64,000 nt of DNA from Apostichopus japonicus (GCF_037975245.1 NC_092575.1:7599001-7663000), one strand, 5' to 3'; numbered from the stretch's first letter, positions 1 through 63,634 are shown. Program-made: numbers and translations. Notes: a model not told the origin generated them from the sequence alone.

Positions 1-24
1 CACTTTCCTGCATTAAAAAAAATG

Positions 25-95
25 TGCGTTGGCCGGGAATTGAACCCGGCCTAATGCTTGGAAGGCATCAATGCTAATCACCACACCACCAACGC
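25..95 (-). pseudogene. tRNA-Gly(UCC) locus 1, one-base deletion
   Basis: This copy is 71 nt long: one base is missing where the variable loop meets the T-stem. It also has two D-arm changes shared with locus 9. It is probably non-functional. Confidence 0.7.
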
Positions 96-181
96 TGCTT
101 TATTGAATTGCAGAACACTTGGTCAAAGTTCTATCGATATTTTCCTTTTCGTAGCGAATGCTCTCCTGCATTAAAAAAGTG

Positions 182-253
182 TGCGTTGGCCGGGAATTGA
201 ACCCGGGCCTAATGCTTGGAAGGCATCAATGCTAACCACTACACCATTAAGGC
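182..253 (-). pseudogene. tRNA-Gly(UCC) locus 2, damaged acceptor
   Basis: The 5' acceptor strand reads GCCTTAA instead of GCGTTGG, so three of seven acceptor pairs are lost. Anticodon and T arms are intact. Confidence 0.65.
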
Positions 254-339
254 TGCATCATTGAACTGAAGAAAACTTGGGTAAAGTTCTATCGATATTT
301 TCCTTTTCGTTGAGAACACTTTCCTGCATTAAAAAAATG

Positions 340-411
340 TGCGTTGGCCGGGAATTGAACCCGGGCCTAATGCTTGGAAGGCATCAATGCTAACCACTAC
401 ACCACCAATGC
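340..411 (-). tRNA. tRNA-Gly(UCC) locus 3
   Basis: It differs from consensus by G3 to A3, giving an A3-C70 mismatch in the acceptor stem. It may be weakened. Confidence 0.75.
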
Positions 412-498
412 TGCTTCATTGAATTTCAGAACACTTGGTCAAAGTTCTATCGATATTTTCCTTTTCGTAGCGAATGCTCTCCTGCATTAAAAAAAGTG

Positions 499-570
499 TG
501 CGTTGGCCGGGAATTGAACCCGGGCCTAATGCTTGGAAGGCATCAATGCTAACCACTACACCACCAAGGC
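499..570 (-). tRNA. tRNA-Gly(UCC) locus 4
   Basis: It differs from consensus by G3 to C3, a C-C clash at 3:70 of the acceptor stem. Confidence 0.75.
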
Positions 571-657
571 TGCTTCATTGAATTGCAGAACACTTGGGTG
601 AAGTTTTTTAGATATTTTACTTTTCGTAGAGAACACTTTCCTGCATTAAAAAAAATG

Positions 658-729
658 TGCGTTGGCCGGGAATTGAACCCGGGCCTAATGCTTGGAAGGC
701 ATCAATGCTAACCACTACACCACCAACGC
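658..729 (-). tRNA. tRNA-Gly(UCC) locus 5, consensus copy
   Basis: All 72 positions match the array consensus, with terminator T-run just downstream. Confidence 0.92.
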
Positions 730-815
730 TGCTTCATTGAATTGCAGAACACTTGGTCAAAGTTCTATCGATATTTTCCTTTTCGTAGCGAATACTCTCC
801 TGCATTAAAAAAGTG

Positions 816-887
816 TGCGTTGGCCGGGAATTGAACCCGGGCCTAATGCTTGGAAGGCATCAATGCTAACCACTACACCACCAACGC
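816..887 (-). tRNA. tRNA-Gly(UCC) locus 6, consensus copy
   Basis: Consensus sequence. The spacer to locus 7 is short, making this the 143-bp unit. Confidence 0.92.
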
Positions 888-958
888 TGCTTCATTGAAT
901 TGCAGAACACTTGGGTAAAGTTATTTCGTAGAGAACACTTTCCTGCATTAAAAAAATG

Positions 959-1030
959 TGCGTTGGCCGGGAATTGAACCCGGGCCTAATGCTTGGAAGG
1001 CATCAATGCTAACCACCACACCACCAACGC
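959..1030 (-). tRNA. tRNA-Gly(UCC) locus 7
   Basis: One A-to-G change lies in the D arm/box A (GTGTGGTGG instead of GTGTAGTGG). Confidence 0.85.
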
Positions 1031-1116
1031 TGCTTTATTGAATTGCTTAACACTTGGTCAAAGTTCTATCGATATTTTCCTTTTCGTAGCAAATACTCTC
1101 CTGCATTAAAAAAATG

Positions 1117-1188
1117 TGCGTTGGCCGGGAATTGAACCCGGGCCTAATGCTTGGAAGGCATCAATGCTAACCACTACACCACCAACGC
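1117..1188 (-). tRNA. tRNA-Gly(UCC) locus 8, consensus copy
   Basis: Consensus over the full gene; the upstream spacer has small differences (CTTCTTTGTATTGC on the plus strand). Confidence 0.92.
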
Positions 1189-1275
1189 TGCTTCTTTGTA
1201 TTGCAAAACACTTGGGTAAAGTTCTATCGATATTTTCCTTTTCGTAGAGAACACTTTCCTGCATTAAAAAAAATG

Positions 1276-1347
1276 TGCGTTGGCCGGGAATTGAACCCGG
1301 GCCTAATGCTTGGAAGGCATCAATGCTAATCACCACACCACCAACGC
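1276..1347 (-). tRNA. tRNA-Gly(UCC) locus 9
   Basis: Two D-arm changes (TGTGGTGATTAGC) are shared with locus 1, but the gene is full length. The shared changes fit unequal exchange inside the array. Confidence 0.8.
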
Positions 1348-1433
1348 TGCTTTATTGAATTGCGGAACACTTGGTCAAAGTTCTATCGATATTTTCCTTT
1401 TCGTAGCGAATGCTCTCCTGCATTAAAAAAGTG

Positions 1434-1505
1434 TGCATTGGCCGGGAATTGAACCCGGGCCTAATGCTTGGAAGGCATCAATGCTAACCACTACACCACC
1501 AACGC
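1434..1505 (-). tRNA. tRNA-Gly(UCC) locus 10 with G3-U70 pair
   Basis: C70 is replaced by U, giving a G3-U70 wobble with A73 still present. G3-U70 is the main identity element for alanyl-tRNA synthetase. The 5' end of this gene (1505) is 36 bp from the poly(A) end of the inserted LINE. Confidence 0.85.
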
Positions 1506-1717
1506 TGCTTCATTGAATTGCAGAACACTTGGTCAAAGTTCTTTTTTTTTTTAAAGTTTCACTTTATTCAACCAAAATCAAAATGTACAGATAAAACAAG
1601 TGCACTTAGTGCACTTTTTGACAAGTACTAAACAGAATTTAGTAAAATAATAATCCAAACAGTTAATGCAGAACAAAGGAAGTATATATTAAGACTTTAG
1701 AAATGAAAAACAAAACC

Positions 1718-4700
1718 TTAAGAGACATTTGTCTTGAGATTAATATGAAGTTTGTCTTTTTTAATTTTAACAAAAGACGTTCCGGACGTCCAAAGTTTAC
1801 TAAACTGATGTTTTGTGAGACGACTGAAGTCTGCTTCTACTCGGGTTTTAATTTCCTTTGCAATAATCGAGAGAAGAGCAGTCCCAGTTTGGGCTTGGTC
1901 TTCAAAAATATGAAGGCACCTTGACTTCCAAATAGCAAATTTCGTAATACAAAAGATAAACCAAATTCTGTTGAAAACTATCTGTGGAAAGTCGACACAA
2001 GGGAATCCAAACAAATACAGTTTCATGTTAAATGAGCTGTTATCACCAGCTAATCTGTGAAAAATTTTCTCTACCCAAATCAAAACTGTCTTGGCTTTTG
2101 GGCATTCCCAGAAAATGTGAGAAATGGTCTCAATTTCGTTACACTGCTCGCAAGGACAAATACCGTCACCCATTCCCCAGTCCTTTATCCTTTTACCGGT
2201 GTACAAAATGTGATGTGCTAGACGCCATTGAAAATCCATTAATTTGTTGCCTAGCATGTTACTAAAGGCCAGCTTCCAGATGGTCTCCCAAGGGAAAGCT
2301 GGGTAATCTCTAACAGCAATTAAGTTGGCACCACTGGGTTGAAGGGATTTAGTAATAAGTTTGATACTCTTACTGGACTGAAAGAAAAGGCTGTCCATGG
2401 AATGTAACCTCCTAATGATATCACTTGCGTAAAGTAACGAGGGTGGACAAACGGCAGAATTTGGCCGCGTATTGGACCATAACTGAGGGAAGACTCTACG
2501 TAGTGGCATGGCCAGAAAGAAACGAGCTATAATAAAATGGATAGGCGGGTCTTGCATGCGAGTCAGCAAGGTAAATAACGGTCTAATTAACAATGCATCC
2601 ATCTTATTTCTAAAACTATCTAAACCTAAGCCGCCTTTTAGTCTGTCCAAGATGATGACTTTCCTAGACACAAGGTCGGGTTTGTTTTCACCCCAAATAA
2701 AGGAGAAAACGGCTTTGTTTACTTCCTTGACCACACTATCAGGCACACGAAAAACGGGGGCCACAAAGTAAAACAGTGGATAAATAACAGTATTAGTAAC
2801 CAGCACTTTGCCTAGGAGAGTCAAGTGTCTGCTGCTCCAAGATTTAGCAAGAAGAGTGGCAGATTTAACCTTGGTAGCCCAATTACAATGGACAGCCTCC
2901 TTTGAACCAAAAGTCACACCCGTGATTTTGATTGAAGAGGTACTCCAATGAATGTTGGTGGGTAACTGACGAGAGGCAAACGTACCCAACTTTAAGCCAC
3001 AAGTCTTGCTCATGTTTACAGAAGCACCGGTAGCTTTTTGAAAAAGTTTAAACACATTAAAATACTGTGCGATATCACCAATATTGGTTGCAACACATGT
3101 GGCGTCATCCGCGTATTGAAGAAATTTAACACGTCTGCCACTCCCACCAGGGATGGGAAAGCCCCGGATGCTATTGCAACTATTAATATATCTAGAAATT
3201 GGCTCAATGAATAACACATACAGAACCGGTGAAAGGGGGCAGCCCTGCCTCACCCCTCGAGCAATGGGTATGATATCAGAGAGATTTCCGTTGATAAGAA
3301 TACGACTGTAAATATTGTTGTACAAAATAGTCACCCATTTTCGAAAATTGCTACCAAACCGTAACTTCTCGAGAACTCTCATAAGAAATGACCAAGAAAC
3401 TTTATCGAAAGCTTTGTGTTGGTCGATTGAGATGAGGGCACAATCAATTTTCTTCATGGCAGAATAATCAATTATATCTCTAATTATGAACATATTATCG
3501 TGAATAGATCTGCCAGGGACAGAACACGTTTGATGCTCGTTTACAATAGTGGGCAATACTTTAGACATTCTGATTTGTAGAACCTTCGAGATCAGTTTAT
3601 AGTCTGTGTTAAGCAGACTGATTGGACGCCAATTGGTTGGGTCAGTCTTATCACCTTTCTTTGGGAGAAGTGTAACGATGCCTGTACGCTGAGACATTGA
3701 CATAGTGCCAGTTTTGAAAATGTTGTTATAAACACCGAGGAGGTCTTCGCCCAACATATCTAGGAAGGAGGAATAGAATTCGTATGGAAGACCATCAATA
3801 CCCGGAGATTTGTTATTGGAAGCAAGCGACAGAGCAATCTTTATCTCATCTAGAGTGATAGGTTTTTCAAGACTTTCAATGTCCTCATCATTTAACATGT
3901 TGTGCAAACTATTAATGAAAACATCTTGAGAACTCTCGTCAAACCCTTCGTGGTTGGAATAGAGATCACTAAAGAATTTGTGGAAAACCTCTATAATTTC
4001 CTTATTATTGCAGGTAATATTACCGTCCGGTTTGCGGACTTGATGAACAACTTTCTGATCGGCTTGACGTTTTTCTTTTCTAAAGAAAAAGGCAGATGGT
4101 TTTTCCCCTTCTTCAAGAAATTTAGCTCTGGAACGAATGTAAGCACCTCTTAACTCAGTGTTAATAATATCATCGATTTCCTGAGAATTTGAAGTCGCAC
4201 AAAGCGTTTGAAGCTCTTTAAGCCGATTTCTCTTCTGACGAGCAATGCGGGAGCTGTGCCGAACCGCAAGCGTTTTAATTCTAGACTTAACGTTCTCCCA
4301 CCAATCAGATAAAGCATTAAAACCTGGCTTCAGAGTGGACCAAAGCTTATAATAAACACGTAATTCTTTGCAGAATTCCTTATCATTGTTAAGAGACACA
4401 TTGTACTTCCAATAACCTTTCCCCCGAGTAGCAGTGTGAGGAATTTTGATGTTGACCTGAATAGGCTTATGGTCAGAATAAGGGATCGGCGACGTAGTCG
4501 CTTTGTTGACAAAAAAATCTCTCGAAGAGTAGATTCGATCAAGTCTAGAACTTTGACTGTTGTTAAAACGAAACCAGGTATGACCGGGTATGGTGGGGTG
4601 GATAACCCTATAACAATCAACAAGATTATAAGTGACAATAAGATCGTTGATCTCATCCCGGCCTACAAAAGCAGAACGGTTGGACGAAATGTTTGAGCGA

Positions 4701-5161
4701 TCGATGTCATCCATTACACAATTAAAATCGCCCCCCAAAATAATAGGGTCGTAACCACGGGTGTAAGTGTAAATTTGCCTGAAAAACGCTTTCCTTTCAC
4801 TCGGGGCGTTAGGCGCATAAATGTTACAAACCCGTACAGTACTGTTATGAATAGTGCAGAGGGCAGAAATGCAACGACCAGAGGTATCGTGTCTTACTTG
4901 CGAAATGACGCAACACAGTTTACTACTGAAAGCAATACCCACCCCACAAGAGTGATTAGAAGAACTAGGGGAGAAAATGAAAGGACCACCCCATTGACGT
5001 CTGAAAAATTGAGAGTCGGCACTATCCGACAAATACAGTTCTTGCAGAAGAATAATATCAAAATTGAATATCTTAGCCCATTGTAAAATCTTTGAACATT
5101 TTTTGTTGTCTCTTAGTCCATTAACGTTAAGTGAAGCAATCGATAGGTTCATAGTAGCCAT
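1718..5161 (-). CDS. LINE ORF2: AP-like endonuclease and reverse transcriptase
   Basis: The protein is about 1147 residues when started at the ATG at 5161; the frame is open from 5206, but that upstream start is TTG. The N-terminal apurinic-type endonuclease shows SLNVNGLRD, the glutamate in LLQELYL, YAPN, GGDFN and SDHKPI. The reverse transcriptase follows with the first catalytic Asp in DQHKAFD, RQGCPLSP and the YADD box at bases 3104-3115 (about residues 683-686). The C-terminus has a Cys/His cluster (CPCEQC, then H and C), as in L1/Tx1 proteins. It nicks target DNA and copies the element RNA at that site. No stop codon or frameshift is visible, so activity is possible. It lies 59 nt downstream of the ORF1 stop. 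Confidence 0.92.
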   Translation of the reverse strand: MATMNLSIASLNVNGLRDNKKCSKILQWAKIFNFDIILLQELYLSDSADSQFFRRQWGGPFIFSPSSSNHSCGVGIAFSSKLCCVISQVRHDTSGRCISALCTIHNSTVRVCNIYAPNAPSERKAFFRQIYTYTRGYDPIILGGDFNCVMDDIDRSNISSNRSAFVGRDEINDLIVTYNLVDCYRVIHPTIPGHTWFRFNNSQSSRLDRIYSSRDFFVNKATTSPIPYSDHKPIQVNIKIPHTATRGKGYWKYNVSLNNDKEFCKELRVYYKLWSTLKPGFNALSDWWENVKSRIKTLAVRHSSRIARQKRNRLKELQTLCATSNSQEIDDIINTELRGAYIRSRAKFLEEGEKPSAFFFRKEKRQADQKVVHQVRKPDGNITCNNKEIIEVFHKFFSDLYSNHEGFDESSQDVFINSLHNMLNDEDIESLEKPITLDEIKIALSLASNNKSPGIDGLPYEFYSSFLDMLGEDLLGVYNNIFKTGTMSMSQRTGIVTLLPKKGDKTDPTNWRPISLLNTDYKLISKVLQIRMSKVLPTIVNEHQTCSVPGRSIHDNMFIIRDIIDYSAMKKIDCALISIDQHKAFDKVSWSFLMRVLEKLRFGSNFRKWVTILYNNIYSRILINGNLSDIIPIARGVRQGCPLSPVLYVLFIEPISRYINSCNSIRGFPIPGGSGRRVKFLQYADDATCVATNIGDIAQYFNVFKLFQKATGASVNMSKTCGLKLGTFASRQLPTNIHWSTSSIKITGVTFGSKEAVHCNWATKVKSATLLAKSWSSRHLTLLGKVLVTNTVIYPLFYFVAPVFRVPDSVVKEVNKAVFSFIWGENKPDLVSRKVIILDRLKGGLGLDSFRNKMDALLIRPLFTLLTRMQDPPIHFIIARFFLAMPLRRVFPQLWSNTRPNSAVCPPSLLYASDIIRRLHSMDSLFFQSSKSIKLITKSLQPSGANLIAVRDYPAFPWETIWKLAFSNMLGNKLMDFQWRLAHHILYTGKRIKDWGMGDGICPCEQCNEIETISHIFWECPKAKTVLIWVEKIFHRLAGDNSSFNMKLYLFGFPCVDFPQIVFNRIWFIFCITKFAIWKSRCLHIFEDQAQTGTALLSIIAKEIKTRVEADFSRLTKHQFSKLWTSGTSFVKIKKDKLHINLKTNVS

Positions 5162-5220
5162 AGAGAGAGAGATAAAGTAAAGAACAGAACGAGATGTATA
5201 CCACAATGAGATTCCGATGA

Positions 5221-6627
5221 TCAGGCATTCCTTAAAAAATACCTGTCGAAAAATTCTATCTCCTTTTTACTGACAAATTCTGGGTGCTCGTCAGCCATAT
5301 GTAAGATCCATTCCTGGGGGGATTTACACGTATTCTTGCATGACTTCATAGCACATGGGTACTTTGACGGTTTCAGCTTTGGGTGGGCGTTTAACAGGTG
5401 CTCTTTCAAAACGTGATACTCAGAAAAAATTTCCGGGCATCCCTTTGCTTTACATGAGTGCCATGGCTCATCCTCTAGAAAAATTTGTGACATTTTCACA
5501 CTATCTTTGGGATCCTCGGCGGGGAAGCGAAGACTTGACCTGGATCTTTCTGGTCTTTTGACTGCCTCAGGTTGGGAGACACTTTTTCTCTTGGGTCTTA
5601 AGCTGGGACGAAATTTATTATCCCCAACGATGTCCTCTTGTGACGATATTTCAGGTGAAGGTTTAGACTGTCTTCTTTCGCTGTTAGATACTTCCCGATG
5701 TTCTGTTTGAGGGGTGGCCCAGCTACTTGATGCTATAGACATTGTCTCCATAACCTCTGTGTTTTCGAAAAAATCTGTGTCGCTATCGTTGATTGTTTGA
5801 CTTTCTTCTTTTTTCTCTAGGTCCTGTGTCATACCTTGTGTATCGACCGTTTCGGCAATGGTGTTGCCATCAGTTACTTTTGCCGTTGGCTCGTCAGTTT
5901 CTTCCGAAATTGTTGCCTCTTGTTGCACGACAGCAGGACCCTTGACCCAGGCTCTGGCGGTAGGGCTGATTTTGTTCGCAAAGGAAATTGGGCAGCTACG
6001 AGAGGTGTGCCCCAACTTTTCGCATACGGTGCACTTAACTTCAGTCACACATTGCTTTGCTGTATGTCCAATTTCGTGACAGTTGTAGCACTTTATCTGG
6101 TCACAGTGTTTTGCTTCATGTCCGTTTGCTCCACATTTCAGGCAAGTTCTGGGCTGGCCTCTATATCTCACCCAACAGTTTCTTCCACCAAGTCTTAAGG
6201 ATGAAGGGATGTCTTTGGTGATTTCAACCTGATACTGCCGAATCCCATTAAACACCTGTGGGTAGTCGGAAAGTGTAAGGAAACGACCACTCACAACTTT
6301 ACCGTAACGGCCTAGTATATACCTCACCACGTTGTCCCCCAATTCATACGGTACATGCAAAACCGTAACTAGCGTCGTGCAACCGGTATATGTTGTTGCA
6401 GTGCAGCAATCTGCACTCGATTGAGCAGGCCAAAACTTCTTCTTCAAATCTACTGTTTTGAAAGTCACGTCCCATAGTCTACCGGGGAGTTCCTGAACTG
6501 CCGTTAGATGTTCTCCGGGATCTATGCACTTTTCCTTCAAAAGATTAAAAAGAACTGACTTTCCCTCACTACAATCTAAGTGAAGCTGTATGGACATGTC
6601 TCGACTAAGAGCAGCCATGTTGACCAT
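5221..6627 (-). CDS. LINE ORF1: zinc-knuckle nucleic-acid-binding protein
   Basis: The protein has 468 residues. An N-terminal region resembling the RRM-like fold of such ORF1 proteins precedes three CCHC knuckles: CLKCGANGHEAKHC, CYNCHEIGHTAKQC and CTVCEKLGHTSRSC (CX2CX4HX4C). A Ser/Glu/Thr-rich linker follows, then two C2H2-like segments near the C-terminus (CKAKGC...HLLNAH and CAMKSC...HMADEH). ORF1 proteins of this kind bind element RNA and act as chaperones in the retrotransposition particle. The start is the ATG at 6627; an in-frame ATG nine bases downstream is an alternative. Confidence 0.9.
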   Translation of the reverse strand: MVNMAALSRDMSIQLHLDCSEGKSVLFNLLKEKCIDPGEHLTAVQELPGRLWDVTFKTVDLKKKFWPAQSSADCCTATTYTGCTTLVTVLHVPYELGDNVVRYILGRYGKVVSGRFLTLSDYPQVFNGIRQYQVEITKDIPSSLRLGGRNCWVRYRGQPRTCLKCGANGHEAKHCDQIKCYNCHEIGHTAKQCVTEVKCTVCEKLGHTSRSCPISFANKISPTARAWVKGPAVVQQEATISEETDEPTAKVTDGNTIAETVDTQGMTQDLEKKEESQTINDSDTDFFENTEVMETMSIASSSWATPQTEHREVSNSERRQSKPSPEISSQEDIVGDNKFRPSLRPKRKSVSQPEAVKRPERSRSSLRFPAEDPKDSVKMSQIFLEDEPWHSCKAKGCPEIFSEYHVLKEHLLNAHPKLKPSKYPCAMKSCKNTCKSPQEWILHMADEHPEFVSKKEIEFFDRYFLRNA

Positions 6628-6766
6628 CTCAATGTTCTCGCTCTACAGCTGTTACAGTGCGCCAAGAAGTCTGGCCACTCTATCGGCTGAGATATTAGCT
6701 ATCGATATCGATATTAGCTATCGATATTTTCCTTTTCGTAGAGAATACTTTGCTGCATTAAAAATG

Positions 6767-6838
6767 TGCGTTGGCCGGGAATTGAACCCGGGCCTAATGC
6801 TTGGAAGGCATCAATGCTAACCACTACACCACCAAAGC
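6767..6838 (-). tRNA. tRNA-Gly(UCC) locus 11
   Basis: First tRNA to the right of the LINE. G3 is replaced by U3, a mismatch with C70. Confidence 0.75.
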
Positions 6839-6924
6839 TGCTTAATTGAATTGCGGAACACTTGGTCAAAGTTCTTTCGATATTTTCCTTTTCGTAGAGA
6901 ACACTTTCCTGCATTAAAAAAATG

Positions 6925-6996
6925 TGCGTTGGCCGGGAATTGAACCCGGGCCTAATGCTTGGAAGGCATCAATGCTAACCACTACACCACCAACGC
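6925..6996 (-). tRNA. tRNA-Gly(UCC) locus 12, consensus copy
   Basis: Consensus gene; a one-base spacer difference next to the 5' end is shared with locus 16. Confidence 0.92.
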
Positions 6997-7082
6997 TGTT
7001 TCATTGAATTGCAGAACACTTGGGTCAAGTTCTTTAGATATTTTCCTTTTCGCAGAGAACACTTTACCGCATTAAAAAATTG

Positions 7083-7154
7083 TGCGTTGGCCGGGAATTG
7101 AACCCGGGCCTAATGCTTGGAAGGCATCAATGCTAACCACTACACCACCAACGC
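7083..7154 (-). tRNA. tRNA-Gly(UCC) locus 13, consensus copy
   Basis: Consensus gene with the spacer variant TTGAAATGTGGAAC upstream, also seen at loci 22, 26 and 33. Confidence 0.92.
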
Positions 7155-7239
7155 TGCTTAATTGAAATGTGGAACACTTGGTCAAAGTTCTATAGATATT
7201 TTCCTTTTCGTAGAGAACACTTTCCTGCATTAAAAAATG

Positions 7240-7311
7240 TGCGTTGGCCGGGAACTGAACCCGGACCTAGTGCTTGGAAGGCATCAATGCTTACCACTAC
7301 ACCACCAACGC
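7240..7311 (-). tRNA. tRNA-Gly(UCC) locus 14, diverged
   Basis: It carries changes in the D loop, anticodon stem, variable region and T loop, and is the most diverged full-length copy. Its duplicate is locus 27, 2792 bp away. Confidence 0.75.
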
Positions 7312-7397
7312 TGCTTCATTGAATTGCAGAACACTTGGTCAAGTTCTATCGATATTTTCCTTTTCGTAGAGAACACTTTCCTGCATTAAAAAAAATG

Positions 7398-7469
7398 TGC
7401 GTTGGCCGGGAATTGAACCCGGGCCTAATGCTTGGAAGGCATCAATGCTTACCACTACACCACCAACGC
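7398..7469 (-). tRNA. tRNA-Gly(UCC) locus 15
   Basis: A single D-loop T-to-A change (GGTAAGC) is shared with its duplicate, locus 28. Confidence 0.87.
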
Positions 7470-7555
7470 TGCTTAATTGAATTGCAGAACACTTGGGTCA
7501 AGTTCTATCGATATTTTCCTTTTCGTAGAGAACACTTTCCTGCATTAAAAAACTG

Positions 7556-7627
7556 TGCGTTGGCCGGGAATTGAACCCGGGCCTAATGCTTGGAAGGCAT
7601 CAATGCTAACCACTACACCACCAACGC
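7556..7627 (-). tRNA. tRNA-Gly(UCC) locus 16, consensus copy
   Basis: Consensus gene; its trailer is CAGTTTTTT rather than CATTTTTT. Confidence 0.92.
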
Positions 7628-7713
7628 TGTTTCATTGAATTGCAGAACACTTGGTCAAAGTTCTTTCGATATTTTCCTTTTCGTAGAGAACACTTTCCTG
7701 CATTAAAAAAATG

Positions 7714-7785
7714 TGCGTTGGCCGGGAATTGAACCCGGGCCTAATGCTTGGAAGGCATCAATGCTAACCACTACACCACCAACGC
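7714..7785 (-). tRNA. tRNA-Gly(UCC) locus 17, consensus copy
   Basis: Consensus gene, near the point where the second duplicate block lacks about two units. Confidence 0.92.
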
Positions 7786-7871
7786 TGCTTAATTGAATTG
7801 CAGAACACTTGGGTCAAGTTCTATCGATATTTTCCTTTTCGTAGAAAACACTTTCCTGCATTAAAAAACTG

Positions 7872-7943
7872 TGCGTTGGCCGGGAATTGAACCCGGGCCT
7901 AATGCTTGGAAGGCATCAATGCTAACCACTACACCACCAACGC
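7872..7943 (-). tRNA. tRNA-Gly(UCC) locus 18, consensus copy
   Basis: Consensus gene with the CAGTTTTTT trailer. Confidence 0.92.
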
Positions 7944-8029
7944 TGCTTCATTGAATTGCAGAACACTTGGTCAAAGTTCTTTCGATATTTTCCTTTTCGT
8001 ACAGAACACTTTCCTGCATTAAAAAACTG

Positions 8030-8101
8030 TGCGTTGGCCGGGAATTGAACCCGGGCCTAATGCTTGGAAGGCATCAATGCTAACCACTACACCACCAACG
8101 C
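8030..8101 (-). tRNA. tRNA-Gly(UCC) locus 19, consensus copy
   Basis: Consensus gene; the downstream spacer has a private TACAGAAC change. Confidence 0.92.
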
Positions 8102-8187
8102 TGCTTCATTGAATTGCAGAACACTTGGTCAAAGTTCTTTCGATATTTTCCTTTTCTTAGAGAACACTTTCCTGCATTAAAAAAATG

Positions 8188-8259
8188 TGCGTTGGCCGGG
8201 AATTGAACCCGGACCTAATGCTTGGAAGGCATCAATGCTAACCACTACACCACCAACGC
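8188..8259 (-). tRNA. tRNA-Gly(UCC) locus 20
   Basis: One C-to-T change lies in the variable region. The neighbouring spacer variant (CTTAGAGAAC) identifies locus 31 as its duplicate. Confidence 0.87.
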
Positions 8260-8343
8260 TGCTTCATTGAATTGAGGAACACTTGGTCAAGTTCTATCGA
8301 TATTTTCCTTTTCGTAGAGAACACTTTCCTGCATTAAAAAAAG

Positions 8344-8415
8344 TGCGTTGGCCGGGAATTGAACCGGGGCCTAATGCTTGGAAGGCATCAATGCTAACCA
8401 CTACACCACCAACGC
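8344..8415 (-). tRNA. tRNA-Gly(UCC) locus 21
   Basis: A G-to-C change in the 5' strand of the T-stem creates one mismatch. It is shared with locus 32. Confidence 0.8.
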
Positions 8416-8501
8416 TGCTTCATTGAATTGCAGAACACTTGGTCAAAGTTCTTTCGATATTTTCCTTTTCGTAGAGAACACTTTCCTGCATTAAAAAAAT
8501 G

Positions 8502-8573
8502 TGCGTTGGCCGGGAATTGAACCCGGGCCTAATGCTTGGAAGGCATCAATGCTAACCACTACACCACCAACGC
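8502..8573 (-). tRNA. tRNA-Gly(UCC) locus 22, consensus copy
   Basis: Consensus gene; duplicate of locus 33 (offset 2477 bp). Confidence 0.92.
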
Positions 8574-8659
8574 TGCTTAATTGAAATGTGGAACACTTGG
8601 TCAAAGTTCTATCGATATTTTCCTTTTCGTAGCGAATACTCTCTTGCATTAAAAAAATG

Positions 8660-8731
8660 TGCGTTGGCTGGGAATTGAACCCGGGCCTAATGCTTGGAAG
8701 GCATCAATGCTAACCACTACACCACCAACGC
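8660..8731 (-). tRNA. tRNA-Gly(UCC) locus 23
   Basis: A G-to-A change at the outer pair of the T-stem is shared with locus 34. Confidence 0.82.
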
Positions 8732-8815
8732 TGCTTCATTGAATTGCAGAACACTTGGTCAAAGTTCTATAGATATTTTCCTTTTCGTAGAGAACACTTT
8801 CCTGCATTAAAAATG

Positions 8816-8887
8816 TGCGTTGGCCGGGAATTGAACCCGGGCCTAATGCTTGGAAGGCATCAATGCTAACCACTAAACCACCAACGC
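8816..8887 (-). tRNA. tRNA-Gly(UCC) locus 24
   Basis: A G-to-T change in box A (TGGTTTAGTGG) is shared with locus 35. Confidence 0.82.
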
Positions 8888-8974
8888 TGCTTCATTGAAT
8901 TGCAGAACACTTGGGTAAAGTTCTATCGATATTTTCCTTTTCGTAGAGAACACTTTCCTGCATTAAAAAAAATG

Positions 8975-9046
8975 TGCGTTGGCCGGGAATTGAACCCGGG
9001 CCTAATGCTTGGAAGGCATCAATGCTAACCACTACACCACCAACGC
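8975..9046 (-). tRNA. tRNA-Gly(UCC) locus 25, consensus copy
   Basis: Last tRNA before the 0.75-kb spacer module; consensus sequence. Confidence 0.92.
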
Positions 9047-9120
9047 TGCTTAATTGAATTGCAGAACACTTGGTCAAAGTTCTATCTATATTTTCCTTTT
9101 CGTAGAGAACACTTTCCTGC

Positions 9121-9872
9121 AAAGTTCACACCACGTTCTGCTATGAAATGATAATAACTGACACTACATACATTAAAGCATATAACATTATCACTGATCG
9201 ATATTTCGCCATCTGGCAGTCACAAAACCGCAGTTGCACCTTTTAATGGGACCATCATTAGTTTCTATGCTGAGACTAACTTAACGTAAAGTTTCATTAA
9301 ATGTCATGTAAAACAAGGGACTAACCAAGCTATACAATGGGGTGAGTGTCTATGGCATGCAGAGGTATTTAAAAGTTGGGGGAGAGGGTGGGTGTATGTT
9401 AAAAAAAATTCCCCGATGGATTTACGGGTGGGGGCTTGAACCTTTATGGAATGTCCATGGTGAAACGGAATTTATAATCCGACTTCCATGTTGGGGATTT
9501 TTAATGCTAAACATATTACATATTATATTATTATATTATAATGATGATAATACAATTTATTGAGCGCAAAATACCAAAAAAAAGAAGTTCCCAAGCGCTG
9601 TACAAAGAAAACATGAACAAATACATCGAAAGTTGCTAGTGTCATCCAGGCTTCGGGTGAACAGGGAACTATTATCTCAATGACAAATTACAACAAACGT
9701 AAATACGTAAAAACGTAAATACGTTGGAATAGAGAATTAACCCTATTTACAAACAATAGAAAGAACCACTATATTATAGCCCTTTCTCGCATTATGTTGC
9801 GTAAACAGAATAACTATATTCCTGTTTTTGACGGCGCTACCAACTCAAACTTGTCATTAAAAAAAAAAAAAA
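9121..9872. repeat. Non-tRNA array module, copy 1
   Basis: A 0.75-kb segment sits between tRNA loci 25 and 26 and has no tRNA or convincing ORF. By eye it is near-identical to copy 2 at 11598-12349. It contains an AT-rich ATTATATTATAATGATGAT stretch next to TTATTGAGCGC...AAGCGCTGTACAAAG. This resembles the 3' ends of truncated LINEs at 30368 and 53461, so it may descend from an old LINE tail. It ends in a run of thirteen A. Confidence 0.8.
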
Positions 9873-9874
9873 TG

Positions 9875-9946
9875 TGCGTTGGCCGGGAATTGAACCCGGG
9901 CCTAATGCTTGGAAGGCATCAATGCTAACCACTACACCACCAACGC
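9875..9946 (-). tRNA. tRNA-Gly(UCC) locus 26, consensus copy
   Basis: Consensus gene; its terminator is a 13-T run, longer than in most units. Confidence 0.92.
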
Positions 9947-10031
9947 TGCTTAATTGAAATGTGGAACACTTGGTCAAAGTTCTATCGATATTTTCCTTTT
10001 CGTAGAGAACACTTTCCTGCATTAAAAAATG

Positions 10032-10103
10032 TGCGTTGGCCGGGAACTGAACCCGGACCTAATGCTTGGAAGGCATCAATGCTTACCACTACACCACCAA
10101 CGC
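10032..10103 (-). tRNA. tRNA-Gly(UCC) locus 27, diverged
   Basis: It has the same D-loop, variable-region and T-loop changes as locus 14 but an intact anticodon stem. Confidence 0.78.
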
Positions 10104-10189
10104 TGCTTCATTGAATTGCAGAACACTTGGTCAAGTTCTATCGATATTTTCCTTTTCGTAGAGAACACTTTCCTGCATTAAAAAAAATG

Positions 10190-10261
10190 TGCGTTGGCCG
10201 GGAATTGAACCCGGGCCTAATGCTTGGAAGGCATCAATGCTTACCACTACACCACCAACGC
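10190..10261 (-). tRNA. tRNA-Gly(UCC) locus 28
   Basis: D-loop T-to-A variant, duplicate of locus 15. Confidence 0.87.
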
Positions 10262-10347
10262 TGCTTAATTGAATTGCAGAACACTTGGGTCAAGTTCTAT
10301 CGATATTTTCCTTTTCGTAGAAAACACTTTCCTGCATTAAAAAACTG

Positions 10348-10419
10348 TGCGTTGGCCGGGAATTGAACCCGGGCCTAATGCTTGGAAGGCATCAATGCTA
10401 ACCACTACACCACCAACGC
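10348..10419 (-). tRNA. tRNA-Gly(UCC) locus 29, consensus copy
   Basis: Consensus gene, CAGTTTTTT trailer. Confidence 0.92.
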
Positions 10420-10505
10420 TGCTTCATTGAATTGCAGAACACTTGGTCAAAGTTCTTTCGATATTTTCCTTTTCGTAGAGAACACTTTCCTGCATTAAAA
10501 AAATG

Positions 10506-10577
10506 TGCGTTGGCCGGGAATTGAACCCGGGCCTAATGCTTGGAAGGCATCAATGCTAACCACTACACCACCAACGC
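10506..10577 (-). tRNA. tRNA-Gly(UCC) locus 30, consensus copy
   Basis: Consensus gene. It lies at the junction where the duplicate block is two units shorter than the original. Confidence 0.92.
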
Positions 10578-10663
10578 TGCTTCATTGAATTGCAGAACAC
10601 TTGGTCAAAGTTCTTTCGATATTTTCCTTTTCTTAGAGAACACTTTCCTGCATTAAAAAAATG

Positions 10664-10735
10664 TGCGTTGGCCGGGAATTGAACCCGGGCCTAATGCTTG
10701 GAAGGCATCAATGCTAACCACTACACCACCAACGC
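10664..10735 (-). tRNA. tRNA-Gly(UCC) locus 31, consensus copy
   Basis: Consensus gene. It lacks the variable-region change of its partner locus 20 but shares that unit's spacer variant. Confidence 0.92.
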
Positions 10736-10820
10736 TGCTTCATTGAATTGCAGAACACTTGGTCAAGTTCTATCGATATTTTCCTTTTCGTAGAGAACAC
10801 TTTCCTGCATTAAAAAATTG

Positions 10821-10892
10821 TGCGTTGGCCGGGAATTGAACCGGGGCCTAATGCTTGGAAGGCATCAATGCTAACCACTACACCACCAACGC
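10821..10892 (-). tRNA. tRNA-Gly(UCC) locus 32
   Basis: T-stem G-to-C variant, duplicate of locus 21. Confidence 0.8.
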
Positions 10893-10978
10893 TGCTTCAT
10901 TGAATTGCAGAACACTTGGTCAAAGTTCTTTCGATATTTTCCTTTTCGTAGAGAACACTTTCCTGCATTAAAAAAATG

Positions 10979-11050
10979 TGCGTTGGCCGGGAATTGAACC
11001 CGGGCCTAATGCTTGGAAGGCATCAATGCTAACCACTACACCACCAACGC
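10979..11050 (-). tRNA. tRNA-Gly(UCC) locus 33, consensus copy
   Basis: Consensus gene, duplicate of locus 22. Confidence 0.92.
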
Positions 11051-11136
11051 TGCTTAATTGAAATGTGGAACACTTGGTCAAAGTTCTATCGATATTTTCC
11101 TTTTCGTAGCGAATACTCTCTTGCATTAAAAAAATG

Positions 11137-11208
11137 TGCGTTGGCTGGGAATTGAACCCGGGCCTAATGCTTGGAAGGCATCAATGCTAACCACTACACC
11201 ACCAACGC
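11137..11208 (-). tRNA. tRNA-Gly(UCC) locus 34
   Basis: T-stem G-to-A variant, duplicate of locus 23. Confidence 0.82.
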
Positions 11209-11292
11209 TGCTTCATTGAATTGCAGAACACTTGGTCAAAGTTCTTTCGATATTTTCCTTTTCGTAGAGAACACTTTCCTGCATTAAAAATG

Positions 11293-11364
11293 TGCGTTGG
11301 CCGGGAATTGAACCCGGGCCTAATGCTTGGAAGGCATCAATGCTAACCACTAAACCACCAACGC
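11293..11364 (-). tRNA. tRNA-Gly(UCC) locus 35
   Basis: Box A G-to-T variant, duplicate of locus 24. Confidence 0.82.
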
Positions 11365-11451
11365 TGCTTCATTGAATTGCAGAACACTTGGGTAAAGTTC
11401 TATCGATATTTTCCTTTTCGTAGAGAACACTTTCCTGCATTAAAAAAAATT

Positions 11452-11523
11452 TGCGTTGGCCGGGAATTGAACCCGGGCCTAATGCTTGGAAGGCATCAAT
11501 GCTAACCACTACACCACCAACGC
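11452..11523 (-). tRNA. tRNA-Gly(UCC) locus 36, consensus copy
   Basis: Consensus gene. The trailer differs from its partner, locus 25, by one base (AAATTTTT on the minus strand). Confidence 0.92.
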
Positions 11524-11597
11524 TGCTTAATTGAATTGCAGAACACTTGGTCAAAGTTCTATCTATATTTTCCTTTTCGTAGAGAACACTTTCCTGC

Positions 11598-12349
11598 AAA
11601 GTTCACACCACGTTCTGCTATGAAATGATAATAACTGACACTACATACATTAAAGCATATAACATTATCACTGATCGATATTTCGCCATCTGGCAGTCAC
11701 AAAACCGCAGTTGCACCTTTTAATGGGACCATCATTAGTTTCTATGCTGAGACTAACTTAACGTAAAGTTTCATTAAATGTCATGTAAAACAAGGGACTA
11801 ACCAAGCTATACAATGGGGTGAGTGTCTATGGCATGCAGAGGTATTTAAAAGTTGGGGGAGAGGGTGGGTGTATGTTAAAAAAAATTCCCCGATGGATTT
11901 ACGGGTGGGGGCTTGAACCTTTATGGAATGTCCATGGTGAAACGGAATTTATAATCCGACTTCCATGTTGGGGATTTTTAATGCTAAACATATTACATAT
12001 TATATTATTATATTATAATGATGATAATACAATTTATTGAGCGCAAAATACCAAAAAAAAGAAGTTCCCAAGCGCTGTACAAAGAAAACATGAACAAATA
12101 CATCGAAAGTTGCTAGTGTCATCCAGGCTTCGGGTGAACAGGGAACTATTATCTCAATGACAAATTACAACAAACGTAAATACGTAAAAACGTAAATACG
12201 TTGGAATAGAGAATTAACCCTATTTACAAACAATAGAAAGAACCACTATATTATAGCCCTTTCTCGCATTATGTTGCGTAAACAGAATAACTATATTCCT
12301 GTTTTTGACGGCGCTACCAACTCAAACTTGTCATTAAAAAAAAAAAAAA
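11598..12349. repeat. Non-tRNA array module, copy 2
   Basis: Second copy of the 0.75-kb module, displaced 2477 bp from copy 1 and matching it by eye over its whole length. It belongs to the larger block duplication of the array. Confidence 0.85.
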
Positions 12350-12351
12350 TG

Positions 12352-12423
12352 TGCGTTGGCCGGGAATTGAACCCGGGCCTAATGCTTGGAAGGCATCAAT
12401 GCTAACCACTACACCACCAACGC
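12352..12423 (-). tRNA. tRNA-Gly(UCC) locus 37, consensus copy
   Basis: Rightmost gene of the array. Its upstream spacer ends at the decayed module copy beginning near 12498. Confidence 0.92.
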
Positions 12424-57753: not shown

Positions 57754-60700
57754 TCATGCCACAAGTAATTGTTTTGGTGCATGATCAAATTTCTCTAGCT
57801 TCTTACCAAGAAGAATTTCACTGTTGGGAAATATCGGTTTGAGATCCACTGAACTGTGCGCGAAGGGACAATTTAATTCGTGTAGCGGACATCCATCTGG
57901 GTGGTTGTCATGAAACCAACAGAGTTTTGTCTTCTTTTTCTCTTCTCTCCTCTCACTGTCTTTCTGCTTATTCTTTGAACTTACTTTTGGTGAACGGGAA
58001 TCTTTTTCAGACCAATCTCTCATGTGCACTCTGTTACCTTCAACTGAAGAAAGACGATTCCATGAAATTCAAACGATTATTAACAACCTGGCATCAACAG
58101 ACAGATTTATTTCAAAAGAATCCCCTTATGAAATGACTTCTGATGACAATATGACGAAAAAAGATTGTTGTGGCAATTGCGAGTGACACACTTGGGGTAA
58201 GAAGGGTAACCAGGCGGAGGCACGGGGGTGGGGGATCAGGGGGAGGGGGCTCAGACCCACCGTGTCACCATCATGTGTACAGGACAAATATTGTGCCTCC
58301 TGACTAAGGCCTTACTTAGGGTTTGTGTGACACTTGACTCCATGACTTAGTTACATGGGTAAGGTCTACCTTACCATGTAGGCAATACCTGCATTATATT
58401 CCAATTTATGCCCTTTCCAGGCAGAGCTCATAACATCAAAATATGTTATCCCTCATATACTGATAAATTATCCTTTACAGTCAGTACATAAGAGAAATGA
58501 TCCAGGCTCTAAAAAGTCTGAACTGAAAAAAAAAAAATATTGATCGAATTTGATAAAAAATAAAGAGTAGTTTCTCGCATCCGATACATAATTCACTTTG
58601 GTCCTTCCTTAAAATTGCCAGGCAACCGTTTACACTGTACGATTCAGCCGACTGATCACATCATCAAAGAATGAAAGAATTGAGCCATTCATTAGTCACA
58701 TATTTATGTAAATGTTAGAGGATATGGCGCAAACAAAACAAAGTAAGAAACATTAAGAGACACAGAAACCATTTCCTCTGTCTACTAATGTATTCTTGTG
58801 TTGGTTATTTCCGTCCGTTAACCTCCAAGGAAGATCCTGCAGGGATCGATACATCAAGCCCTCTTACTTTTCAAGTATTTACCTACAAAGGCTTTCTGCA
58901 GTCTGTTAACAGTTGTTTTTTCCCTCATTAACTTTCACCTTTAGTGTAAACTCTGAGCCCATACAGGCTATTCCAACAACACCAATGACACAATTGAAAA
59001 GAACCACGCTTGAGTACTAGTGCCTAGACACTTCTTAGTTTTAGTTTTAACAGGCCAATTTATTTTTTTAGTCTTAGTAGTATATTCTTAGACAATACAC
59101 TATCACCTTCTGAGAGGTGCTCATGAAACATTCAGTAAACAGTACTGCTCAAAAGAGACAACGAGATGCAACAACTTTCCAAAGAACAAGATCAGACTGA
59201 ACTTACCCTGAAATATTTGATAATGGTTTTTGAGTAACGTCTTTAGTCCCCCACATTCGCTCTTCAGCTGCTTTAATGTGTCTTGCTCAAATAATTCAAC
59301 AACTTCTTTTATTGTGATCACACCTAAACGAGAAAAGAATTGTTAACCTGATAGCTGAGAAGGGGCAAGTATAGGTTTGAAGCAATGCAATGATAGTCCA
59401 TATTTTTAAAGGGTGTGAAGACTCGCGCACAAAGAAACGTCTCATGCCAGTAATCTGACCTAGTTTCGAATGAGGTATAACAGAAGTGTTAGACACCACC
59501 ATCGATCCCAGAAATTACACACACAGCTTGCTACCGTCGGTAATTAGACAATAGTGTAAAGTCAATTCATACAGCTACCGTCAATACCCACAACACAGTG
59601 GATATATAAGCGATGGACATCTCAGGTCTAGATGAAAAGAATAACAAGGTATCAGGTTTCATTACTGTCTGCATTTTGTAGCGACAAGAAGAAAACTTCC
59701 CTTGCAAGCAACAGAAAGTTAACTTTTTCAGAGCGTGGCACACGGTTTGGGGCAAGTCTTCAATGCATTTAATAACATATTGAATGTACTGTGTAGTGGT
59801 TACTTGCTTCCCAACCCACACTCCATCCCTATCCTAGCACAGCTTCCTATCACACATGATGACTGTTCCCACCAAGCTCCCTCCCTCACAAACTTCCATG
59901 TTAAAGCCTTGACTGGAATCTAATTCCTTTGTGTGACCTGGCCAGAGCTGTGGCTGTGTAATGGCAAAGAAGATTCTTCCATAGATTTTGGAGAAAGGAG
60001 TTTACAGAGATCTCTTTGCTGCACAGTAATGATATATATTCAACAAGTTGCATTCATCATCCTCATGATTTCGGAGAGTTGTCAGACGCATCGCTGGGAT
60101 GCAGTATCTTCCGTTGATATGAGAGTGAAAAATTGAACGAGCCTGCAATTTCGTTATGTCGAAAAAAAAACACAGCTAAGCATCTTCAATCAAATACTTC
60201 AGAGCGAAGTTAATGATATTCTTGCAAAACATGGATATCTGAAGTTTTCTGTTTAGTTTCTTTACTGCATCTGATATTGTGTTGTGTGTCACATAACAAT
60301 TTACTGCATCTGATATTGTGTTGTATGTTATATACCAATTTACTGCATCTGATATTGTGTTGTATGTCATATACCAATTTACTGCATCTGATATTGTGTT
60401 GTATGTCACATACCAATTTACTGCCTCTGATATTGTGTTGTATGTCATATACCAATTTACTGCGTCTGATATTGTGTTGTATGTCACATACCAATTTACT
60501 GCGTCTGATATTGTGTTGTATGTCATATACCAATTTACTGCATCTGATAGAGTGTTGTATGTCACATACCAATTTACTGCATCTGGTATTGTGTTGTATG
60601 TCACATACCAATTTACTGCATCTGATAGAGTGTTGTATGTCACATACCAATTTACTGCATCTGATATTGTGTTGTATGTCATATACCAATTTACTGCGTC

Positions 60701-63634
60701 TGATATTGTGTTGTATGTCACATACCAATTTACTGCGTCTGATATTGTGTTGTATGTCATATACCAATTTACTGCATCTGATAGAGTGTTGTATGTCACA
60801 TACCAATTTACTGCATCTGGTATTGTGTTGTATGTCACATACCAATTTACTGCATCTGATATTGTGTTGTATGTCATATACCAATTTACTGCATCTGATA
60901 TTGTGTTGTATGTCACATACCAATTTACTGCATCTGGTATTGTGTTGTATGTCATATACCAATTTACTGCATCTGATATTGTGTTGTATGTCACATACTA
61001 ATTTACTGCATCTGATAGAGTGTTGTATGTCATATACCAATTTACTGCATCTGATATTGTGTTGTATGTCACATACCAATTTACTGCATCTGATATTGTG
61101 TTGTATGTCACATACCAATCTACTGCATCTGATATTGTGTTGTATGTCACATACCAATTTACTGCGTCTGATATTGTGTTGTATGTCATATACCAATTTA
61201 CTGCGTCTGATATAGTGTTGTATGTCACATACCAATTTACTACATCTGATATTGTGTTGAATGTCACATACCAATTTACTGCGTCTGATAGAGTGTTGTA
61301 TGTCACATACCAATTTACTGCATCTGGTATTGTGTTGTATGTCACATACCAATTTACTGCATCTGATAGAGTGTTGTATGTCACATACCAATTTACTGCA
61401 TCTGATATTGTGTTGTATGTCATATACCAATTTACTGCATCTGATAGAGTGTTGTATGTCACATACCAATTTACTGCATCTGGTATTGTGTTGTATGTCA
61501 CATACCAATTTACTGCATCTGATAGAGTGTTGTATGTCACATACCAATTTACTGCATCTGATATTGTGTTGTATGTCATATACCAATTTACTGCATCTGA
61601 TATTGTGTTGTATGTCACATACCAATTTACTGCATCTGATATTGTGTTGTATGTCACATACCAATTTACTGCATCTGATATTGTGTTGTATGTCATATAC
61701 CAATTTACTGCATCTGATATTGTGTTGTATGTCACATACCAATTTACTGCATCTGATATTGTGTTGTATGTCATATACCAATTTACTGCATCTTATATTG
61801 TGTTGTATGTCACATACCAATTTACTGCATCTTATATTGTGTTGTATGTCACATACTAATTTACTGCATCTGATAGAGTGTTGTATGTCATATACCAATT
61901 TACTGCATCTGATAGAGTGTTGTATGTCACATACCAATTTACTGCATCTGGTATTGTGTTGTATGTCACATACCAATTTACTGCATCTGATATTGTGTTG
62001 TATGTCACATACCAATTTACTGCATCTGATATTGTGTTCCTTAATTTACTCTCCATTTTTGTGAATTAGCTTCATATTCTTTTACCTCCTTTCCTCCAGC
62101 TTTTCGGTTTCTTTGCTTTTTGACCTTCGACCTCAGGGTTCTCTCCTGCTGCGAGTATAGCATCAAAAACTTTTCTAACGATTTCTTCCTTCAAGTCATT
62201 ACTAAGGTTTGAACAATTCCTAACAGTTTCTTCTCTTTGTCTAGGTTCAAAGTTCGCGGACAATTTTGAGCTTACTGCTTTTTCTGACATTGGCTTGTCC
62301 AAGTCTGCCATATAATCCTCAAGACTGCCAGTAGCATTACAAGATTTCTGTCCTTCTTTTGAGGTACTCCTTGTCTCGATATACCAATTAATCTGAGAAT
62401 ACTTAAGTGTTCTCAGCTCAGGAGGTGGTAGTTCCATTCCTATCTGGCAAATCTTATAACGTGAAAAGGCAAAAGTCGGCACGTTATAATGATTAACGCA
62501 AAAGAGAAAAAAAGTTGAATCAATGAAGAAAAAAGTTGAAGGTTTGTTGACATGGTACCATGGATTTCCTGCAGAGTCCCAGATATTTGACATAAAATCG
62601 TATAAATATGATTAAGAATGTAACGTCACTTTCAAAATTATACAGAACACATGTTGTACATGTAAAACTGAAAGCACTCCTCAAAATTCTTTTGCTAAAG
62701 TAGTTTAATTGCTGCAGTTCGAGTAAATTTTGATAAGCTTTGAGATGCTCTTTTCATGCTAAAGAATCTATCACATGATACTCATTAGATACAGTAGCCT
62801 AAGCACAAGAGTCAAGTTTTCTTCACAAGCAGAAAGCAAGAATCACCCCTCCCCCCACGTCCCCTCCCCAGGACTTTCCCACAAAATGCAGTGTTTTGAA
62901 ACCTTCTCTGATGACATTGGGGTAATGAAAAACTATGAGACGTCTTCCAATGAAAATATGCCGATAAACTGTGATCAATTTTATGATGAGTCCCACAATT
63001 CTTAAAAATTCACCTGGTTAATACAAAATCTACATGAGTATCTTAACTGGGGATCAATTGCAGCTTTAACTTGAAACTTAACTTGGCAAAATGCCACTTG
63101 AAATTGATGATAATGGGATCCAACGATTTCACTTTTTGTTGTTCTTGTTGAAAATATTGATATGTTGTATAATTATTCTCGCATGGAATAGCAAAATGGC
63201 TATATTACTACCAAAAATATACAAAATATAATTGATAAATTATTAAAATAAAATAATACATAATAATAATATATATAATATACATAAAATAATATATAAT
63301 AATAATATATATAAACAATAATTAATAATATATTATAATAATAATAACAATAATATATCACAATAATCATAAATAAAATAAAATAAAATATATTTAAAAA
63401 ATATATAAATGATTAATTCAAGGAAGCCTACAATAATAAAGAAATACCTTTTTCGTTGATGGTATTCTAAGGCTGTCTTCCTCGACCTGGTAGCCACAAA
63501 TTTTGCCGCCTACTTCTTGAATGAAATTCAAGTAGGACCGGTACTGAGTTATACTGGAATCGTCCTTAATGTACTTCCTATCGAAATCATAAAAACAACA
63601 CGGCAGAACAAAGTATCTTGTATTTAGAGAGGAC
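57754..63634 (-). CDS. TRMT44: tRNA uridine-44 2'-O-methyltransferase, C-terminal exons
   Basis: Four exons join in frame: 63448-63634, 62086-62452, 59207-59323 and 57754-58043. The 5' part, with most of the methyltransferase domain, lies beyond the window. Exon one has FVLPCCFYDF, TQYRSYLNFI and EEDSLRIPSTKK, which match human TRMT44 closely. A poorly conserved linker follows (exon two), then LKQLKSECGGLKTLLKNHYQ, RVHMRDW, and a C-terminal CCCH zinc finger CWFHDNHPDGC...C...CPFAH (spacing 9-6-3). The enzyme family (yeast Trm44) methylates the 2'-O of uridine 44 in serine tRNAs in the cytoplasm. Exon phases agree at every junction and the stop is at 57754. The intron between 59323 and 62086 holds a 39-bp minisatellite and repeat R330. 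Confidence 0.95.
59409..59800. repeat. Dispersed repeat R330, copy 3
   Basis: Lies in a TRMT44 intron. It is closest to copy 2, including the TTTGGGGCAAGTCTTCAATGC end. On the minus strand it keeps an open stretch beginning MVVSNTSV and HSKLGQITG that is also open in copies 1 and 2. Confidence 0.8.
60259..62036. repeat. 39-bp minisatellite, ~45 units, in a TRMT44 intron
   Basis: The unit is ACTGCATCTGATATTGTG + TTGTATGTCACATACCAATTT, exactly 39 bp with almost no indels. Variants recur at fixed sites: CAC/CAT, GATATT/GATAGA/GGTATT and GCATCT/GCGTCT/GCCTCT. Because 39 is a multiple of three and the unit lacks stops in several frames, long ORFs run through it on both strands (for example units of CDIQHNIRCSKLV or VTYNTISDAVNWY). 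These are repeat translations, not supported genes. Confidence 0.95.
62453..63447. other. TRMT44 intron, A/T-rich microsatellite
   Basis: Contains a long low-complexity ATA/AATAAT stretch at about 63225-63410 and no recognisable gene. Confidence 0.7.

Follow-up and report, generated by a model that had tools for sequence, protein, structure and literature searches.

Did the LINE that interrupts a tRNA gene array of Apostichopus japonicus land there by chance, or does it belong to a family that is directed to such genes? The window, meaning the whole stretch of 64,000 nucleotides that was analyzed (GCF_037975245.1 NC_092575.1:7599001-7663000), contains a tandem array of tRNA-Gly genes, all called on the minus strand. 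A preliminary description of this DNA had placed a LINE 36 bp 5' of one of the tRNA genes and in the same orientation, and the coordinates bear this out. On the basis of sequence, ORF, and domain calls, the minus strand of positions 1542-6717 is a LINE with two ORFs and a poly(A) tail. The features of the locus are as follows.

24-12423, minus strand: tandem tRNA-Gly(TCC) array, 37 called genes, period of about 158 bp (ARAGORN, Rfam RF00005)
6766-6838, minus strand: preceding tRNA-Gly, on the 5' side of the LINE; the insertion site is 47 bp past the 3' end of this gene
6699-6733, minus strand: LINE 5' junction, with the target motif TATCGATAGCTAATATCGATATCGATAGCTAATATC repeated; element boundary at about 6717/6718
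6636-6698, minus strand: 5' extension of this copy, resembling the tRNA-like array unit at the insertion site on contig C9
5221-6627, minus strand: ORF1, 468 aa, with three CCHC knuckles and two C2H2-like fingers at the C terminus
1718-5206, minus strand: ORF2, 1162 aa counted from an upstream TTG, about 1147 aa from the first ATG near 5161
4469-5137, minus strand: APE-type endonuclease, ORF2 residues 24-246 (Pfam PF03372, E 9.6e-17)
2909-3664, minus strand: reverse transcriptase (RT), ORF2 residues 515-766 (Pfam PF00078, E 3.1e-37)
2084-2284, minus strand: zf-RVT domain, ORF2 residues 975-1041 (Pfam PF13966, E 1.9e-07)
1542-1717, minus strand: 3' UTR, with AATAAA at 1563-1568 and an 11-base poly(A) at 1542-1552
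1433-1505, minus strand: following tRNA-Gly, 36 bp 3' of the LINE poly(A) end and in the same orientation

The best PDB match of ORF2 was LINE-1 ORF2p (E about 5e-81), and the element has the APE endonuclease, the LINE-1 ORF2p-related RT, and the poly(A) end of an L1-group, APE-type LINE. It is apparently intact and recently active. The 5' extension is 83-84% identical to the 164-bp C9 unit and, over 54 bases, up to 93% identical to an array unit on C7; it was not found in other full-length copies. The 36-bp gap upstream of the tRNA at 1433-1505 is explained by the 158-bp period of the array. The 47-bp gap on the other side of the LINE, to the preceding tRNA, was absent from the preliminary description. 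Elsewhere in the window, several long ORFs of up to 601 aa overlap one another at positions 60176-62593, with both strands represented; they may belong to a coding repeat or to a further mobile element.

Other copies were gathered from the source assembly (671.6 Mb, 35 contigs) by a search with ORF2, followed by a search with the last 600 bases of the LINE. The ORF2 search found nine copies at 97-100% amino acid identity on seven contigs: C4, C8, C9, C11, C13, C15 (two copies), and C18 (two copies). The search with the last 600 bases added six, namely, C11:4277150, C16:15038240, C23:242038, and three short insertions on C7, C8, and C23, bringing the family to 15 insertions. In four copies ORF2 is nearly full length and free of interruptions, and these four also have an open ORF1; the C4 copy reaches into an assembly gap. 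The most diverged copy is C23:242038 (89% identical), and the short insertions are 5' truncated and 91-100% identical. Since a tRNA gene followed by a LINE tail is also the layout of a SINE, that reading of the short tails on C7, C8, and C23 was considered and rejected. Each tail has its own target-site duplication in tRNA-flanking DNA and the three have no common body, and so they look like 5'-truncated LINE insertions.

The flanks of all 15 insertions were then compared, with tRNA genes called by ARAGORN or cmscan. Eight insertions are at called tRNA genes, three are in tRNA-like tandem arrays, and three are in a multicopy Pol III-like unit. The sole exception is an older copy, C23:242038, where no tRNA was found within the 0.9-1.5 kb examined on each side. 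The called tRNA genes comprise Gly (window), a Leu array (C13), a Glu array (C15), Ser(AGA) (C18), a Phe-like array (C8), and, beside the short insertions on C7, C8, and C23, genes with anticodons called ACA, TTA, and ATA. These last three have upstream sequence in common and may be members of one tRNA-derived family. The LINE family is thus associated with at least five tRNA isotypes as well as with tRNA-like arrays, arrays within one genome not being fully independent of one another. The tRNA-like arrays have a 164-bp unit at the C9 insertion and a 156-bp unit at the C11 and C4 insertions. On the sense strand, the units at C9 and C11 have motifs resembling an A box and a B box as well as a T-run, a set matched in 0 of 500 shuffles; cmscan called no tRNA in these units or in the 337-bp multicopy unit described below, and the Pol III nature of all of them is motif based. 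These flanks provide strong support for the proposal in the preliminary description that this LINE targets tRNA genes and did not land here by chance. The contrary outcome named in that description, copies scattered without relation to tRNA genes, did not appear, given that 14 of the 15 insertions are associated with one of the three kinds of site.

Two further observations were made at such loci. The tRNA-Phe-like tandem array at C8:3.93-3.95 Mb (L037, L038) has a period of about 284 bp and is partly masked as N, and the T arm of its genes appears to hold an insertion of about 36 bp. At C17:23721360 (L060:461-761), a 5S rRNA gene is preceded, at a distance of 30 bp, by the 3' end of a diverged relative (74-86% identical) that has the same orientation as the gene.

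The insertions also have a uniform geometry. All 14 associated insertions have the orientation of the RNA gene. Counted from the 3' end of the preceding tRNA, the target duplication starts after 47 bp (Gly), 51 bp (Ser), about 41 bp (Leu), about 51 bp (Glu), 21 bp (Phe-like), 44 bp (C23), 32 bp (C8 short insertion), and 174 bp (C7). Seven of the eight called-tRNA cases therefore fall within 21-51 bp, a range that was read from the same data and for which we claim no P value. On the other side, the next tRNA follows after 36 bp (window), about 56 bp (Leu), about 195 bp (Glu), and 2.7 kb (Ser). Comparison of the distances on the two sides identifies the downstream side of the preceding tRNA as the regular one. 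The spacing is not fixed, since the C9 site lies inside a tRNA-like unit, between the A and B boxes (also about 130 bp past the B box of the previous unit), and the C11 site lies at the very end of a unit. Most insertions show target duplications of about 9-21 bp, as is typical of LINE integration. Outside this range are the window copy, where no more than 2 bp are duplicated, and the Glu copy, with a duplication of about 150 bp.

The 5' ends of two copies hold pieces of other loci. The 5' piece of the window copy is part of a C9-type array unit and extends up to that array's own insertion site, as expected if the parent element had resided in an array of this type and its transcript had started inside a unit. 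At the 5' end of the C18a copy (L033, C18:7751414-7751530), 117 bp match a single other locus, C19:23045007-23045123, at 100% identity; this piece came either from a lost C19 parent, by 5' transduction, or from template switching. Several 5' junctions (window 6690-6733, L049, L053, and L055) show short tandem copies of target sequence, a stutter that suggests slippage in second-strand synthesis.

Could random insertion, with better survival of copies that landed in multicopy arrays, account for this pattern? Neighboring tRNA genes are not rare in this genome, in which the B box GGTTCRANNCC has 72,743 matches, compared with 4,624 for the reversed pattern. The background was therefore bounded by these B-box counts, with each match treated as a tRNA. 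Even at this generous density, the probability of a sense insertion no more than 200 bp downstream is 0.011 per copy, and 8 of 15 such insertions gives a P of about 1e-12. Survival bias, moreover, predicts neither the spacing nor the single orientation seen in 14 of 14 cases. At 97-100% identity the copies are young, so that selection has had little time to act, and in a genome of 671 Mb there is ample DNA where an insertion would do no harm. Chance insertion was rejected on the basis of the copy table, this P value, and the orientation, and with survival bias included the explanation is barely credible. Three copies of a control LINE family (35% identical) had no tRNA within 1.5 kb on each side. 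As a separate observation, the excess of B boxes over the reversed-pattern expectation is about 68,000, and tRNA-derived arrays and repeats are extremely abundant in this genome.

A second possibility is direct DNA sequence specificity, in which the endonuclease reads a motif or DNA shape in tRNA-flanking spacers, as Keno does in U2 and Dewa reportedly does in the tRNA-Leu spacer. The preliminary description raised a sequence preference for the spacer as one of two options, placing the insertion within ATCGATA and stating that this motif occurs in every spacer. The nick of the window LINE does adjoin the motif (CAAAGTTC/TATCGATATTTT, plus strand), but ATCGATA is present in only 19 of the 33 spacers of the window array and is absent from the other listed target sites, and it was rejected as the determinant. 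Among the flanks of different sites, no common motif was evident apart from an A/T bias, which is to be expected at the place of poly(A) annealing. Several sites are T-rich and then purine on the nicked strand, a pattern that would fit a reading of sequence by the endonuclease, and that may reflect a weak nick preference. Nevertheless, the targets are unrelated tRNA spacers that have only a neighboring Pol III gene in common.

More support for sequence specificity comes from the 337-bp unit. The C18b, C11b, and C16b insertions are at one exact site of this unit, AAAAG/AACCCGGGAGGAT. The three look mutually independent because their 5' ends differ and because their flanks are 84-90% alike, whereas the elements match the window copy at 97-100%. 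A first look gave 344 candidates for the unit in the genome, and the 40 that were scored are 96-99% identical; it is seen at L019:5077-5460, at C16:14.5-20 Mb, and on other contigs. The unit has A- and B-box-like motifs, although 3 of 500 shuffles had equally good ones, and a T-run about 45 bp ahead of the insertion site. An Rfam search gave no match to the unit even at an E value of 5, and its predicted fold was no better than those of shuffles (z -1.1). It is possibly an undescribed Pol III RNA gene. The elements L019 and L027, 47-48% identical to the window ORF2 and with different 5' ends, share a different exact site in the unit, just 5' of the box-A-like motif. Two LINE families thus use two distinct exact sites of the 337-bp unit. 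Exact sites are used by sister families in U2 as well. Weighed against the unrelated spacers at the other insertions, these data leave direct sequence specificity as a rather unlikely explanation for the family as a whole.

The relatives of the family were found in U2 snRNA genes. Families with 37-51% ORF2 identity sit in U2 genes at C16:31.01-31.17 Mb, with the 3' flank GTATCTGTTCTT, a position within U2 that we take to be the Keno site. A single site inside U2 is occupied in this gene cluster (L010-L026) by LINEs of at least four families, some of them with an open ORF2. In the ORF2 tree, the tRNA-associated family, three U2-inserted families, and L019/L027 form one clade with 100/100 support, indicating common descent with APE-type LINEs of the U2 site; a fourth U2-inserted family (L022/L024) falls outside the clade, beside the control family, under midpoint rooting. 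The Tx1-clade assignment given in the preliminary description is tentative, with indirect support from this grouping with U2-inserted families. The double C2H2 motif of ORF1 is present in the 100/100 clade and absent in L022 and in the control. None of the 15 insertions of the tRNA-associated family is in U2. Because the families with exact sites in U2 and in the 337-bp unit group with the tRNA-associated family, exact-site choice and loose choice of Pol III genes occur in sister lineages. The grouping of its ORF2 with U2-inserted families from this genome makes it probable that exact targeting of U2 gave way to a looser preference for Pol III genes.

We consider it fairly likely that this is a recently active APE-type LINE, close kin of the U2-inserted LINEs of this genome, whose integration machinery is brought to Pol III-type genes. 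Among the options raised in the preliminary description, we infer that a tether to the Pol III machinery explains the data best, and it is also our preferred explanation overall. In the proposed mechanism, a ribonucleoprotein of ORF1 and ORF2 would arrive at a tRNA or tRNA-like gene and dock there on the Pol III transcription complex through a putative protein tether and its partner, with the two C2H2-like fingers of ORF1 having a possible role. The endonuclease would nick a loosely preferred site, typically 20-50 bp past the 3' end of the gene, and target-primed reverse transcription (TPRT) primed by poly(A) would leave a copy in the orientation of the gene. An alternative without a specific protein tether is that the LINE prefers the open chromatin, R-loops, or stalled replication forks found where Pol III genes are highly transcribed. 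This would likewise enrich insertions behind strongly transcribed tRNA genes and bias their orientation, and tRNA gene arrays are strong replication-fork barriers. Such conditions should affect other LINEs, yet neither the three control copies, a small sample, nor the U2-inserted families are at tRNA genes. We regard this tether-free account as quite improbable.

Among known systems, the closest in habit to the proposed Pol III-tethered LINE is TRE3, an L1-type LINE of Dictyostelium that inserts downstream of many kinds of tRNA genes, in the same orientation, within a window of 40-150 bp (PMC5911963, PMC5006619). The two share an APE endonuclease, an RT, a zinc finger in ORF2, two ORFs, and an oligo(A) end, as well as insertion downstream of many kinds of tRNA genes in the orientation of the gene, here with eight insertions 21-174 bp 3' of a called tRNA. 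They differ in spacing (40-150 bp for TRE3 versus mostly 21-51 bp here), in host (a compact amoeba genome versus one of 671 Mb), and in the kinship of the present family with U2-inserted LINEs. TRE5-A is likewise a LINE that targets tRNA genes, inserting about 44-54 bp upstream by a B-box-dependent contact with TFIIIB, and TRE5 elements insert upstream of tRNA genes in the opposite orientation (PMC5911963). The upstream geometry of TRE5, which the preliminary description had invoked, does not describe this family: all associated copies are in the same orientation, their upstream distances run from 36 bp to 2.7 kb, and the spacing that is regular across copies is the one downstream of the preceding tRNA.

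Keno, an APE-type LINE reported only from animals, shares its U2 site with Utopia, a distinct element with a restriction-like endonuclease (PMC4640811). The present family resembles Keno in being APE type and in sharing its ORF2 clade (100/100) and the ORF1 double C2H2 motif with the three U2-inserted families at GTATCTGTTCTT. Keno, however, has one exact U2 site, whereas this family lies outside U2 and has no single site sequence. Dewa, a zebrafish LINE reported for the tRNA-Leu spacer, was described together with Keno and Mutsu in one set of target-specific LINEs (PMC3706591). It too is a LINE in a tRNA gene spacer, but its description sets it apart by a single tRNA type, compared with at least five isotypes and tRNA-like arrays here; only 1 of the 15 insertions is at tRNA-Leu, and a single-target habit like that of Dewa was rejected for this family. 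A 2018 review described retrotransposon insertion downstream of tRNA genes as limited to dictyostelid genomes (PMC5911963). Our literature search for an animal LINE that inserts behind tRNA genes, which covered papers outside subscription, found no precedent besides Dewa. On the present evidence, the family behaves like TRE3, but its kin are the Keno-like LINEs inserted in U2.

A fuller history, the chances of which we judge to be evenly balanced, is that a lineage of elements strict for the U2 site gave up reading a single target sequence and came to follow Pol III complexes instead. Such a LINE would insert 3' of any tRNA-type gene, convergently with the amoeba TRE3, and would hop between tRNA-type arrays, sometimes carrying a 5' piece of the previous array. 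The presence in one genome of related LINEs with a strict U2 habit and with a tRNA gene habit permits a direct comparison of sequence-guided and complex-guided targeting, and comparison of the related proteins could reveal which protein part determines the target. These findings suggest that insertion behind Pol III genes evolves repeatedly, large genomes included.
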